Of a stretch of 64,000 nt of DNA, positions 30,212 to 33,758 are shown in pieces. The stretch covers positions 434,001-498,000 of the forward strand of contig NZ_BAAAWN010000001.1 in the NCBI RefSeq assembly GCF_039535095.1. Direction: 5' to 3'. The number at the start of each line of letters is the position of its first letter. Position 1 is the first letter of the stretch. The notes under the pieces were generated by a model that was not told where the DNA came from, ran no database searches, and saw only the letters and a list, made by a program, of their open reading frames with translations. Made by a program: the position numbers and the translations under genes. The stretch is from Arthrobacter ramosus (GTDB taxonomy: Bacteria; Actinomycetota; Actinomycetes; Actinomycetales; Micrococcaceae).

Positions 30212-30916
30212 ATGCGAACGCACGAGCTCGTCCTGAGTTGGATCGAAAAGCAATTGTCCGACGGGCACTTGGTGCTTGGTGGGCGGCTTCCTGCCGAGCG
30301 GGCGCTGGCAGAACAGCTGGAAGTCTCAAGGACCTCGGTCCGCGAAGCCATCAGGATCCTGGAAGCCATGGGTTTGGTGCGGGCAGGTGTCGGCTCCGGC
30401 AAGGACGCCGGGACCGTGGTCATCGCGGAACCGGCCACGGCACTCGGCTCCGCGCTCCGCCTCCACGTGGCCACGCAGCATTTGCCCGTCGCTGACATCG
30501 TGGAAACACGGGTCCTGCTCGAATCATGGGCGGTATCCCGCGCCAAGGCCGATGCCCCCGAACTCAAGGAGGCAGCGAGGCTGCTGGACGAAATGGACGT
30601 AAGTGCCGCCGTCGACGACTTCCTCGCGCTCGACGTCGCCTTCCACCTCGCGCTGGCGGAAGCCGCCGGAAATGCCGTGGTGAGCACCATCATGGGATCG
30701 CTGCGTGAAGCGATTGAGGGTTACGCCGCGGCGCTCACTGCGAACCTGCCGGATTGGGATAGCACCGCCCAGCGCCTGAGGTCGGAGCACCGCGCCATCT
30801 TGGAGGCCGTGAACGACGGCGACGGCGGCCGGGCAGCGACCCTCGTTGCCGCACACATCGAGGGGTACTACCGGGAAGCCGGGCTGGGGCTGGCCCCTGC
30901 TGAACCTAGGCCTTGA
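30212..30916 (+). CDS. FadR-subfamily GntR regulator, probably LldR-like
   Basis: A 234-residue repressor. N-terminal GntR winged helix: LVLGGRLPAERALAEQLEVSRTSVREAIRILEAMGLV. C-terminal FCD domain with metal/ligand-type residues: VETRVLLESWAVSRAK, DVAFHLALAEAAGN and LRSEHRAILEAVNDGD. The ATG at 30212 is chosen; the earlier ATG at 30179 lies inside operator 2 and would add an operator-encoded tail. The gene is divergent from the lactate dehydrogenase-like gene, so lactate is the likely effector. Its 3' end overlaps the convergent LacI-type gene by 11 bp. Confidence 0.88.
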   Translation: MRTHELVLSWIEKQLSDGHLVLGGRLPAERALAEQLEVSRTSVREAIRILEAMGLVRAGVGSGKDAGTVVIAEPATALGSALRLHVATQHLPVADIVETRVLLESWAVSRAKADAPELKEAARLLDEMDVSAAVDDFLALDVAFHLALAEAAGNAVVSTIMGSLREAIEGYAAALTANLPDWDSTAQRLRSEHRAILEAVNDGDGGRAATLVAAHIEGYYREAGLGLAPAEPRP

Positions 30917-31919
30917 CGGGTCCGGTGCTGCCCCTGAGCTCAATCCGCGGCGGGAAGTAGTTCGTGGGGGAGGCTGCGTCGTTGGTCTGGATCTGCTCCC
31001 GCATGCGGCGCCACGCAAGGTCCCCGAGGTCGGTGATCGGCACGGCGGCGGTGGTCAGCGGAGGCATGGTGTACCGGGCGAAGGGCATGTCGTCGAAACC
31101 AGTGAGCGACAAGTCTTCCGGTACGCGGATCCCGCGCTGGCTTAGTCCGCTCAAGAGGCCCATCGCCGCGACGTCGTTGAAGACGAGGATGCCGGTGGCA
31201 CCGCACGAGGCGACCGCATCGCTTGACTCGAATCCGGCGTCGAACGTGTTGCCTCCGGGAAGGAACTGCAATTCGACGTCCGGGAATTCGGCGGTGAACT
31301 TCTCGAGCCCGCGGAGGCGCTGCACGTTGGACGCGCTGCGGTCCGGTCCCGTCAGGTAGGCCAGTTTGCGATGACCCAGCTCCACCAGATGGGCGGCAAG
31401 TTCCTGGATGCCTTGGCCGTAGTCCACCACGAGGCTGGGAGTCGGCACCGACTCGGTGGTCCGGTTGATGAGGACGAGCGGATAGAGCGAGGGGGCGAGT
31501 TCTTCCAGGTCGGCGTCGCTCATGCGGGGGGCACAAAGAACGACGCCGTCGCATCGCCTACGCGCCTCCCCGGCGAGGATCGCTTCTTCGCTGGAGACTT
31601 CGGACGAGTCGGCGATCAACACGCGGTAGCCGTCGCGGGCGGCGGCAATACTCAGCCCGCGGAGAATGGCCTGGAACGTGGGGTTGGACAGGTCCGGCAC
31701 CACGATTCCGATGGTGTCCGTCTTTCCCAGGGCCAGGCTCCGACCTACCGGGTTTGGCTTGTACTTCAGCTCCAAGGCGGCCGCGCGCACGCGAGCGGCA
31801 ATGTCCGCGTCCACGGTGGTGTTTCCGTTCATGACGCGGGAAACCGTGGCATGCGAAACACCGGCCATGGATGCCACATCTGCGATGCCCACCCGCCGGG
31901 TGTTCCTTCTGCCTGGCAT
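30906..31919 (-). CDS. LacI-family transcriptional regulator
   Basis: A 337-residue regulator. The N-terminal LacI helix-turn-helix is VGIADVASMAGVSHATVSRVMNGN, and the hinge helix ends near YKPNPVGRSLALGKT. The effector domain resembles periplasmic sugar-binding proteins (IGIVVPDLSNPTFQAILRGL, GILVFNDVAAMGLLSGL, SLTGFDDMPFARYTMPPLTT). The ATG at 31919, with AGGAAGGA just upstream, is preferred to 31955. No sugar transport genes are adjacent, so its regulon is elsewhere. A palindrome about 80 bp upstream of its start may be its own operator. Confidence 0.9.
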   Translation of the reverse strand: MPGRRNTRRVGIADVASMAGVSHATVSRVMNGNTTVDADIAARVRAAALELKYKPNPVGRSLALGKTDTIGIVVPDLSNPTFQAILRGLSIAAARDGYRVLIADSSEVSSEEAILAGEARRRCDGVVLCAPRMSDADLEELAPSLYPLVLINRTTESVPTPSLVVDYGQGIQELAAHLVELGHRKLAYLTGPDRSASNVQRLRGLEKFTAEFPDVELQFLPGGNTFDAGFESSDAVASCGATGILVFNDVAAMGLLSGLSQRGIRVPEDLSLTGFDDMPFARYTMPPLTTAAVPITDLGDLAWRRMREQIQTNDAASPTNYFPPRIELRGSTGPVKA

Positions 31920-31998
31920 GGTTTCCTTCCTGGAGCTGGGGCCGCCCTGTTCCAACGCGGCGGCGACATGTGTTCTGAGGTGAAGTTTATAGTGCGTG

Positions 31999-32013
31999 GG
32001 GAAACGGTTTCCC
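31999..32013. promoter_or_regulatory. LacI-type palindromic operator
   Basis: GGGAAAC-G-GTTTCCC is a 7-bp perfect inverted repeat with an odd centre in the divergent region between the LacI gene and the aroG leader. It is a plausible autoregulatory site, and it sits just 22 bases before the predicted -35 of the aroG leader. Confidence 0.55.
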
Positions 32014-32034
32014 TTGATGTCGTTGGATTTCGAT

Positions 32035-32064
32035 TTGCGGGCATCCGGAGCCTGACGCTATGGT
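32035..32064 (+). promoter_or_regulatory. Predicted promoter of the aroG leader transcript
   Basis: TTGCGG (32035-32040) and TATGGT (32059-32064) with an 18-base spacer resemble a housekeeping sigma promoter. Transcription would start about six bases downstream, at or next to the leader ATG (32071), which implies a leaderless mRNA. Confidence 0.5.
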
Positions 32065-32070
32065 TTGGCT

Positions 32071-32130
32071 ATGACTAAGCGTTGGTATGCGTATTTTTCG
32101 TTGGCTCTGGAGGGGCCCGCGTCTAACTGA
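32071..32130 (+). CDS. Aromatic leader peptide of the DAHP synthase gene
   Basis: A 19-codon open frame reading MTKRWYAYFSLALEGPASN. Codons 5-9 are Trp-Tyr-Ala-Tyr-Phe, so all three aromatic amino acids made from the DAHP synthase pathway are sampled in five codons. No ribosome-binding site is visible and the predicted transcription start coincides with the ATG, suggesting leaderless translation. The codons lie directly before the first strand of a set of competing RNA stems. Leader peptides of this kind are known for aromatic biosynthesis genes in corynebacteria and enterobacteria. The peptide is too short to be stable and acts only by ribosome position (inference). Confidence 0.82.
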   Translation: MTKRWYAYFSLALEGPASN

Positions 32131-32207
32131 CACGCATCCAACTTTCCTTCAGAGCCAACAGGGCAGAGATCATTCTCTGCCCTTCGCCATTTCCAGGCGG
32201 GCTCTGA
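32100..32207 (+). promoter_or_regulatory. Attenuator-like alternative RNA stems upstream of aroG
   Basis: Strand 1 GTTGGCTCTG (32100-32109) pairs perfectly with strand 2 CAGAGCCAAC (32150-32159). Strand 2 can instead pair with strand 4, GGCTCTGA (32200-32207), through TCAGAGCC (32149-32156). A separate perfect 9-bp hairpin, AGGGCAGAG/CTCTGCCCT (32160-32183, six-base loop), lies between. A ribosome stalled on the aromatic codons would mask strand 1 and shift the pairing. No T-run follows, so the readout could be termination of another type or control of the aroG ribosome-binding site. Confidence 0.65.
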
Positions 32208-32244
32208 GTAGGGTCCGCACCTCTTTCGGAACAGGACCCCTTTC

Positions 32245-33387
32245 ATGACCAGCATCGCCGCAGAGCCCACCACACATAACGTCGACGTCGGGAATTCCCG
32301 CGCCCAGTCGACGTCGAACCTGCGCGTCAGCCGCTTCGAGCCGCTCCCCACGCCGCAGGAAATCAGCGCGGAACTGCCGCTTGACGCGAGGTCTTCCGCC
32401 GTCGTCGAGCGCGGACGCGATGGAGTCCGCGCGATCATGGACGGCGTGGACGATCGCCTCCTGGTGATAGTGGGCCCTTGCTCCATCCACGATCCGAAGG
32501 CCGGCCTGGAATACGCACGCAGGCTGGTCAGCCAGGCGGAGAAGCATAAGGAAGACCTTTTGATCGTCATGCGGGCGTACTTCGAGAAGCCGCGGACCAC
32601 GGTTGGCTGGAAGGGCCTCATCAACGATCCCCACCTGGACGGCAGCCACGACATTGCGGCCGGACTCCGTGCGGCGCGCGGATTCCTTCAGCAGGTCACG
32701 GCCCTGGGATTGCCGACCGCCACAGAGTTCCTGGAACCCATCAGCCCGCAATACATGGCCGACCTCGTGGCGTGGGGCGCCATCGGTGCGCGGACCACCG
32801 AGAGCCAGATCCACCGTCAGCTCGCCTCGGGACTGTCCATGCCGATCGGCTTCAAGAACGGGACCGACGGCGACCTCCAGGTAGCGATCGATGCCTGCGG
32901 TGCTTCTGCCGCACCCCAGGCGTTCCTGGGGATCGACGGCGATGGCCGCGCCGCCCTGGTGGCGACCTCGGGCAACCCGGACACGCATGTGATCCTGCGC
33001 GGGGGCCGCAAGGGTCCGAACTACGCGGCCGACCAGGTTGCCGCTGCGTCGGAGAAACTCTCGGCGAAGGGGCTGAATCCGCGGCTGATCGTTGACGCGA
33101 GCCACGCCAACAGCGGCAAGAGCCACCATCGGCAGGCCGAAGTCGCCTTGGAGATCGGTGCGCAATTGGAGGATGACGTGGCTTCGCCGATCGCCGGCGT
33201 CATGCTGGAGAGCTTCCTTGTCGGTGGGGCGCAGAACCTGGATGTGGAGCGGCAGTCTGCTGGCGAACAAGAGCTGGTGTACGGCCAGAGCGTCACGGAC
33301 GCCTGCATGGAATGGGACGTCACGGTGTCCGTCCTGGACCAGTTGGCGGCCTCGGCCCGCAAGCGTCGGATGGCTGCTTCCAACTAA
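32245..33387 (+). CDS. aroG: 3-deoxy-7-phosphoheptulonate (DAHP) synthase, type I
   Basis: A 380-residue enzyme joining phosphoenolpyruvate and erythrose 4-phosphate, the first step of aromatic amino-acid synthesis. AroF/G/H-type motifs: LLVIVGPCSIHDPKAGLEYA, MRAYFEKPRTTVGWKGL, WGAIGARTTESQIHRQLASG (substrate binding), GFKNGTDGDLQVAIDA, and DASHANSGKSHHRQ with metal ligands. It is type I (bacterial AroG) and not the plant-like type II. Expression is probably attenuated by the aromatic leader peptide ending 115 bases upstream. The first two ATG-proximal codons follow a weak GGAACAGG site. Confidence 0.95.
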   Translation: MTSIAAEPTTHNVDVGNSRAQSTSNLRVSRFEPLPTPQEISAELPLDARSSAVVERGRDGVRAIMDGVDDRLLVIVGPCSIHDPKAGLEYARRLVSQAEKHKEDLLIVMRAYFEKPRTTVGWKGLINDPHLDGSHDIAAGLRAARGFLQQVTALGLPTATEFLEPISPQYMADLVAWGAIGARTTESQIHRQLASGLSMPIGFKNGTDGDLQVAIDACGASAAPQAFLGIDGDGRAALVATSGNPDTHVILRGGRKGPNYAADQVAAASEKLSAKGLNPRLIVDASHANSGKSHHRQAEVALEIGAQLEDDVASPIAGVMLESFLVGGAQNLDVERQSAGEQELVYGQSVTDACMEWDVTVSVLDQLAASARKRRMAASN

Positions 33388-33545: not shown

Positions 33546-33758
33546 ATGTCCGCAGAGACTAACTTCTCGAACGCGCGTTTCATGACAGTGGCTGAAGTTG
33601 CCGAAGTCCTCCGGGTTTCCAAAATGACCGTGTACCGTCTGGTCCACTCGGGAGAATTGCCGGCCGTCCGATTTGGACGATCATTCCGGGTCCCCGAAGA
33701 AGCCGTGAGCCAGTACCTCAAGGGCGCGGTCGTCGACGGACACTCGGAGACGGCTTGA
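33546..33758 (+). CDS. bldC: BldC-family MerR-like DNA-binding protein
   Basis: A 70-residue protein that is almost entirely one winged-helix domain: FMTVAEVAEVLRVSKMTVYRLVHSGELPAVRFGRSFRVPEEAVSQYL. This is the BldC/excisionase-like family; in Streptomyces BldC binds direct repeats cooperatively and holds back differentiation. In non-sporulating relatives its role is unknown but the gene is highly conserved (Rv0500A), always next to bS22. It stands alone, 158 bp after aroG, so it has its own promoter. Confidence 0.93.
   Translation: MSAETNFSNARFMTVAEVAEVLRVSKMTVYRLVHSGELPAVRFGRSFRVPEEAVSQYLKGAVVDGHSETA

Follow-up and report, generated by a model that had tools for sequence, protein, structure and literature searches.

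A candidate leaderless attenuator with tryptophan, tyrosine and phenylalanine codons upstream of the class I DAHP synthase gene of Arthrobacter ramosus

Aromatic amino acid synthesis begins with DAHP synthase. In the E. coli trp leader the regulatory codons lie within one arm of a stem, the stems are mutually exclusive, and the stop codon is near the competing strands. A case nearer to DAHP synthase is AroR of Corynebacterium glutamicum, which is said to have been reported as leaderless by Neshat et al. in 2014. As far as the accessible text of PMC11802643 and PMC4046766 describes it, AroR is a leader with the codons F-Y-F upstream of aroF. Other actinobacterial leaders have been described as well: the mycobacterial poly-cysteine leaderless attenuators (Canestrari et al. 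2020) are cited in PMC13236596, which in its accessible part also discusses translation attenuation of cysteine genes, and the LEU element before leuA of Actinobacteria, according to the accessible part of PMC1262725, combines a leader peptide with an RNA structure involving the Shine-Dalgarno box. The same 2005 survey of actinobacterial RNA elements reports, in that part, no conserved structures before phenylalanine or tyrosine operons (PMC1262725). Two uORF candidates with F and Y codons before shikimate genes are given in PMC6429828, where the passage at hand does not name the organism and the words Corynebacterium and Arthrobacter are absent from the main text. A literature search, with subscription papers mostly outside its reach, returned no actinobacterial DAHP-synthase attenuator but C. 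glutamicum AroR, and the peptide string WYAYF was not found in it.

The locus studied here is part of the window, i.e. the whole stretch of 64,000 nucleotides of Arthrobacter ramosus that was analysed. The initial annotation had proposed a short frame with aromatic codons directly upstream of a DAHP synthase gene, followed by competing RNA stems. The features of the locus, as they now stand, are as follows.

32035-32064, + strand: promoter, with a -35-like TTGCGG (32035-32040, assigned by eye), an 18-nt spacer and a -10 TATGGT (32059-32064; TAnnnT conserved)
32071-32130, + strand: leader-peptide ORF MTKRWYAYFSLALEGPASN, 19 codons (ATG at 32071, stop at 32128-32130), probably leaderless (sequence reading and relatives)
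32083-32097, + strand: regulatory codons TGG TAT GCG TAT TTT (W-Y-A-Y-F; codon counts in 100 RWYAYF relatives)
32081-32091, + strand: strand A5 (GUUGGUAUGCG, Arg-Trp-Tyr-Ala codons), pairs with A3 with one bulged U (coevolution z -10.0)
32133-32142, + strand: strand A3 (CGCAUCCAAC), just past the leader stop (coevolution with A5)
32100-32115, + strand: strand B5, pairs with B3 (16 pairs) or, via 32103-32107, with X (covariation, folding)
32113-32117, + strand: strand X (GGGCC), pairs with 32103-32107 (B5:X z -5.6)
32144-32159, + strand: strand B3, pairs with B5 or C (covariation, swap tests)
32160-32183, + strand: hairpin H, 10 pairs, no U-tract in the window (covariation)
32184-32200, + strand: small stem h2, UCGCC (32184-32188) with GGCGG (32196-32200) (covariation)
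32197-32208, + strand: strand C, pairs with B3 (via 32200-32208) or D (via 32197-32204) (swap tests)
32211-32218, + strand: strand D (GGGUCCGC), pairs with C (8 pairs) or E (via 32211-32216, 6 pairs) (swap tests)
32233-32239, + strand: strand E (GGACCC at 32234-32239), overlaps the aroF Shine-Dalgarno AGGA at 32233-32236 (D:E z -8.2)
32245-33387, + strand: class I DAHP synthase (aroF/aroG type), the putative regulated gene (PF00793, TIGR00034)

The 19-codon aromatic frame is present as proposed, and the gene directly behind it encodes a class I DAHP synthase (PF00793 match with E 4.6e-87, and a match to the aroFGH model TIGR00034), its start lying 114 nt after the leader stop. The regulatory codons are W5 (32083), Y6 (32086), A7 (32089), Y8 (32092) and F9 (32095). 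The pattern TGG-TAY-GCN-TAY-TTY occurs a single time in the whole 5.25-Mb genome, and the covariance model R1, described below, also has a single match there. The neighbourhood has two further features. A small helix-turn-helix protein, which we take to be of the BldC/excisionase type, is encoded at 33546-33758 directly after aroF. On the other side, an inverted repeat (GGGAAAC-G-GTTTCCC, 31999-32013) is found between the aroF leader promoter and a divergent gene of the LacI family (30906-31955, minus strand, family assigned by eye); the repeat is probably an operator of this regulator, and with only about 20 nt between its end and the -35-like hexamer it might affect aroF as well.

A leaderless start of the leader is very likely, since the ATG follows a TAnnnT box by 6-7 nt and has no Shine-Dalgarno. 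The promoter geometry predicts that the 5' end of the transcript is the leader ATG, as the initial annotation had read from the -10 box, and this geometry is conserved: of 94 distinct upstream regions, 93 have the TAnnnT box at a distance of 6 nt (52 cases) or 7 nt (41 cases) from the leader start, as opposed to 1.6% of shuffled sequences, while a Shine-Dalgarno-like site upstream of the leader start is found in none of the 94. In a broader set, the leader starts 5-7 nt behind a TAnnnT box in 93 of 100 loci. A strict sigma-70 promoter scan of the window locus called no promoter. Taken as sequence signals, these features predict that the leader is translated from a leaderless transcript.

The reading frame and the stems were compared in relatives and both are conserved. 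In a first set of 111 DAHP-synthase loci (L001-L111, in which the window's own locus and several contigs each appear two times), 108 have a leader that fits a strict peptide pattern, and 96 of these are distinct in leader plus gene start; of the exceptions, L075 has the same peptide, while the leaders of L100 and L111 are altered. The RNA covariance model matches 111 of 111 loci (82/82 and the other 29), 37 of which were used to build it. The codons hardly vary: in 100 loci with RWYAYF, the codons CGT, TAT, GCG and TAT are each used 100 times and TTT 98 times, whereas in the aroF genes of the same loci TAT makes up 0.4% of the Tyr codons and TTT 2.3% of the Phe codons. The mean pairwise codon identity is 0.988 in the leader versus 0.617 in DAHP synthase (196 conserved residues, same loci). 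Leader codons that are near-frozen relative to those of aroF point to a constraint that acts both on the RNA and on the peptide, the latter being nearly invariant in the Micrococcaceae loci, non-aromatic residues included. One locus (L069, the same contig as L120; 1264-1403) carries a natural frameshift after leader codon 11, by which the end of the peptide is lost and the RNA strands B5 and X are retained.

The position of the frame relative to the RNA strands is also preserved. The parse required that two or more aromatic codons precede B5 and that the stop fall between B5 and B3; a frame of this kind is found in 99 of 100 loci versus 8.3% when the flanking letters are shuffled, and together with a -10 box in 93 of 100 versus 0.5%. 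In the 99 parsed loci (L164, without a parsed leader, was left out of the geometry counts), B3 follows the stop by 5-20 nt, and in 96 of them the distance from the start of the last aromatic codon to B5 is 6 nt (78) or 9 nt (18).

The RNA stems reported in the initial annotation are all recovered in a somewhat larger form. The perfect 10-bp stem 32100-32109:32150-32159 extends to 16 pairs, some of them G-U (32100-32115:32144-32159), the alternative pairing with 32200-32207 becomes the 9 pairs 32148-32156:32200-32208 (B3:C), and the independent 9-bp hairpin has 10 pairs (32160-32169:32174-32183). New are the stem A5:A3 that holds the regulatory codons, the hairpin B5:X, and the relay formed by C:D and D:E. 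Covariation was assessed on alignment A3, which has 100 matches in 100 chosen loci (99 distinct) and, being fitted to the model, leans towards the modelled structure. On this alignment 97.0% of the cells of stems B, H and h2 are paired versus 82.7 in shuffles, 352 cells are doubly changed versus 98.7 in shuffles and 9-48 with the partners slid, and the covariation score is 0.419 versus 0.161. Hairpin H is the best-paired helix (99.4% of cells, double changes in 8 of 9 modelled pairs), and h2 is 98.4% paired with double changes in 4 of 4 modelled pairs. The arms of H (AGGCAGAGA and TCTCTGCCT) have nearly identical letters in several distant families, which is beyond the need of a plain hairpin.

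The strands were also compared by a swap test, in which the energy of a locus' own duplex is compared with that of swapped partners after removal of row and column means, and in which shared ancestry inflates z. In 89 loci (9 of 100 were dropped by tail length and 2 as repeats), z was -14.5 for B5:B3, -10.3 for C:D, -8.2 for D:E and -4.3 for B3:C, the D and E segments being tested as disjoint halves; in 94 loci it was -10.0 for A5:A3 and -5.6 for B5:X. The control pairs gave C:E -0.6, B3:E +2.6, B5:D -0.8, B5:E -0.5 and B3:D -3.5 in the 89 loci, and A5:X +0.4, A5:E +1.2, A5:B3 -3.3, B5:post +1.0, X:post -2.8, X:B3 -2.2 and X:E -0.8 in the 94 loci, i.e. 10 of the 12 lie between -2.8 and +2.6, with B3:D and A5:B3 as outliers. 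As shared ancestry takes controls to about 3.5, B3:C is the weakest of the six helices, barely past the worst control. For D:E, strings with both strands changed can be read by eye: GGGUCC:GGACCC in the window and L106, CGGUCC:GGACCG in L137, GUCCCG:CGGGAC in L094 and L122, and GUCCGU:ACGGAC in L097. In one Arthrobacter group (L084, L088, L089, L090, L092, L093 and L121) the pairing D:E over the Shine-Dalgarno is altered, and in several of these loci (L084, L088-L090, L121) D has, by eye, another possible partner in a C-rich segment that precedes the Shine-Dalgarno. L090 comes from a record titled Sporosarcina beigongshangi that has an Arthrobacter-type DAHP synthase with the leader, and is probably a mislabelled genome.

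An aromatic ORF before a gene of the pathway, with its codons in or beside one arm of exclusive, conserved stems, supports the architecture of ribosome-mediated attenuation that had been proposed for the locus. We consider it reasonably probable, short of firm confidence, that the element is an attenuator of the DAHP synthase gene that acts in cis, is leaderless and responds to the ribosome, and that its readout is translational. The element itself is well supported; its readout and its sign are what we infer. Two internally compatible and mutually exclusive sets of helices can be read from the sequence. The OFF set would consist of A5:A3 enclosing B5:X, B3:C enclosing H, and D:E over the aroF Shine-Dalgarno, and the ON set of B5:B3, H and C:D, which would leave the Shine-Dalgarno free. 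When aromatic amino acids are plentiful and the Trp, Tyr and Phe tRNAs are charged, the ribosome would reach the leader stop, which lies between B5 and B3, so that B5 would be kept from pairing with B3 during the synthesis of strands B3, C, D and E; B3 would then take C, D would take E, and the Shine-Dalgarno would be hidden. If any of the three amino acids is short, the ribosome would stall at codons 5-9, cover A5 and break A5:A3, upon which B5 could pair with B3 and C with D, and aroF would be translated. The geometry of the frame and the helix energies are the basis on which we infer this sign, according to which a shortage of aromatic amino acids probably turns aroF on.

When no ribosome is present, the energies of the named helices in the window are -59.3 kcal/mol for OFF and -57.5 kcal/mol for ON. 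With the ribosome stalled at W5 or Y6, ON is favoured by 9.0 kcal/mol, and at Y8 by 3.1-4.9; the outcome at F9 depends on the reach that is assumed and ranges from 3.1 kcal/mol for ON to 4.1 for OFF (OFF with a 15-nt reach), and a ribosome at the leader stop favours OFF by 9.5 kcal/mol. Rough duplex sums over 90 loci give an average of -3.9 (sd 7.4) for OFF minus ON; ON is better in 91% of the loci when A5:A3 is lost, and OFF is better in 97% when the ribosome is at the stop.

Folding at equilibrium does not reproduce this behaviour. In unconstrained folding of 205 nt without a ribosome, the probabilities are 1.0 for B5:B3, 0.0 for A5:A3, 0.0 for C:D and 0.85 for D:E, and with a masked ribosome there is no Shine-Dalgarno switch, D:E remaining at 0.85 and the exposure at 0.25 at every ribosome position. 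The switch, if real, must therefore be kinetic, i.e. it must need the order of events during transcription. Across the loci, the predicted exposure of the Shine-Dalgarno is 0.42 versus 0.52 with the preceding letters shuffled, and lower in 56 of 74; it is little changed (0.45) when strand C is added, and 15 of 89 loci have no recognised Shine-Dalgarno. In free folding of the window, strand C (32200-32208) appears paired with 32260-32268 in the coding start of aroF (GCAGAGCCC), not with D. We also considered a pseudoknot in which A5:A3 and B5:B3 coexist, which appears less likely than mutual exclusion.

The initial annotation had noted the missing T-run after the stems, and indeed H is followed by UUCGCCAUUU in the window and a scan of 31900-32400 finds no terminator-like site, so that an intrinsic terminator of the trp type was not found there. 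Because D coevolves with a strand that overlaps the aroF Shine-Dalgarno and because that region holds no terminator-like site, the readout in the clade of the window leans to translation rather than termination. We regard it as unlikely, yet deserving of serious attention, that the locus works by transcription attenuation, with H (or C:D) as a weak intrinsic or Rho-assisted terminator gated by leader translation and D:E as a secondary feature. Such a role would suit the best-paired helix, and elsewhere in the family there are signs of it: at least five T are found in the first 8 nt after H in 18 of 100 loci, in the probable corynebacterial relatives the letters after H are CUUUUG or CUUUCG, and for C. 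glutamicum the accessible text of PMC4046766 mentions attenuator transcripts detected at aroF and that of PMC11802643 describes aroF as enhanced at the transcription level. The U-tailed H of some relatives thus points to termination in those organisms. In the window, the sequence after H and the negative scan speak against it, and H itself forms at 0.99 at every ribosome position; an upstream strand that could sequester H, i.e. an antiterminator, was sought by eye in the U-tailed relatives and not found. Moreover C, D and E, all of which are downstream of H and coevolve, would not be needed for a decision based on H.

The sign of the response could also be reversed. In the E. coli trp leader the pairing of regions 2 and 3 is the ON state in starvation, and by analogy a stalled ribosome would cover B5 and let B3:C form as the ON state. 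The near-fixed distance between the last aromatic codon and B5 would agree with this polarity, as would the fact that a ribosome stalled at F9 partly hides B5 (5 to 8 of the 16 pairs are lost); stalls at W5 and Y6, on the other hand, leave B5 uncovered. We set this polarity aside as quite improbable, since B3:C frees D for E over the Shine-Dalgarno and would shut aroF off in starvation, and since the coevolving stem A5:A3 would be left without a role. The invariance of the Micrococcaceae peptide beyond its aromatic residues might suggest that the nascent peptide arrests the ribosome in response to an aromatic compound, TnaC being an example of arrest by a nascent peptide. The invariance is, however, found at the level of codons, the non-aromatic part encodes B5 and X, and the leaders of distant families differ freely. 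This explanation was rejected as very improbable on account of the codon-level constraint and of the frameshifted leader of L069/L120, in which the RNA is retained. It is scarcely credible, finally, that a protein or small molecule binds the RNA and that the frame is incidental. The extreme sequence conservation, loop-like stretches included, could be taken that way, and for the LEU element of Actinobacteria a protein had at one time been suggested (accessible part of PMC1262725), but in other families the start, the position of the stop and the aromatic content are kept while the letters change, far above the shuffled controls.

The distribution of the element was examined with the covariance model R1, built from alignment A1 (37 sequences; 41 loci had been chosen and L008, L010, L019 and L020 were dropped for strand). 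Among sampled genomes, R1 matches 47 of 297 in the order and 35 of 394 in the class, with one match per listed genome; six genomes, the window's own included, are counted in both samples. In 50 of 55 loci fetched from these matches, the element is followed, in the same orientation, by a homologue of the window's DAHP synthase. In the other five (L163-L167) no homologue of the window's DAHP synthase was found downstream; the one product tested, that of L167, has weak DAHP_synth_1 and chorismate mutase domains. These five loci as well as L203 and L204 belong to one large-genome family in which the element sits before another gene, and there the 8 nt behind hairpin H contain six or seven T. The leaders of distant families vary yet stay aromatic (RWFTYA, RRWRYF, RRYPYF, RWYWRF, RFYF), and in one further family an aromatic short ORF is present in 18 of 20 upstream regions, being absent in L268 and L279. 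A class I DAHP-synthase homologue is found in 79 of the 394 class genomes, and many class I DAHP synthases are without the element: among 25 loci (L211-L235), read by eye, 10 have a leader and 15 do not. Control of DAHP synthase of this kind is thus probably spread over several families. Rfam 15 gives no match in the window at gathering scores and none at E up to 5 in 31950-32300, and a search of ten relatives gave two sub-threshold matches, both in L206, and nothing usable.

We tentatively suggest, as a possibility that we would not call probable, that these loci belong to an RNA family of ancient origin in actinomycetes, in which a single aromatic sensor serves two readouts, namely termination at H in some lineages and the B5-B3-C-D-E relay in Micrococcales. 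In the relay, a ribosome parked at the leader stop would separate two strands and the signal would be passed over about 130 nt to the Shine-Dalgarno of DAHP synthase. One leader could report all three aromatic amino acids, probably via translation rather than termination. The element may serve as a compact test case for leaderless leaders and multi-strand RNA relays, and as a handle for strains that overproduce aromatic compounds.

It is useful to return to the described systems. The likeness to the E. coli trp leader lies in the codons within a stem arm, the exclusive stems and the stop near the competing strands; the locus of the window differs in that it is probably leaderless, has a longer chain of strands and no intrinsic terminator, and has a readout that is probably translational. 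The mycobacterial poly-cysteine attenuators share, judging from the title of the work, a leaderless short ORF with regulatory codons, whereas the amino acid and the genes are different, and the likeness is one of description in the accessible text, not of structure. The LEU element, again compared by its description in the accessible part of the source, likewise joins a leader peptide to a structure at the Shine-Dalgarno, with leucine codons and a proposed pseudoknot as differences. The two candidates of PMC6429828 are, in the passage at hand, aromatic uORFs before shikimate genes, as is ours. The closest system is AroR: in both C. glutamicum and the window, a leader with aromatic codons precedes a class I DAHP synthase. 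The differences are that the window's leader can sense Trp, Tyr and Phe while the codons of AroR are F-Y-F, that H is not followed by a U-tract, and that C, D and E are added over the Shine-Dalgarno. Four of the 20 upstream regions mentioned above come from a group of small genomes that is probably Corynebacterium; three of these loci (L265-L267) have WRFYF or RFYF leaders together with B5, B3 and H, and in L268 no such leader was found. R1 matches L266 (E 1.1e-3) and L267 (E 6e-6), and L265 falls short of E 0.05. On these sequence grounds the family seems to be related to the C. glutamicum AroR attenuator. The kind is thus already known from AroR before aroF, and it is the breadth of the family, the relay and the putative translational readout that appear to be new.
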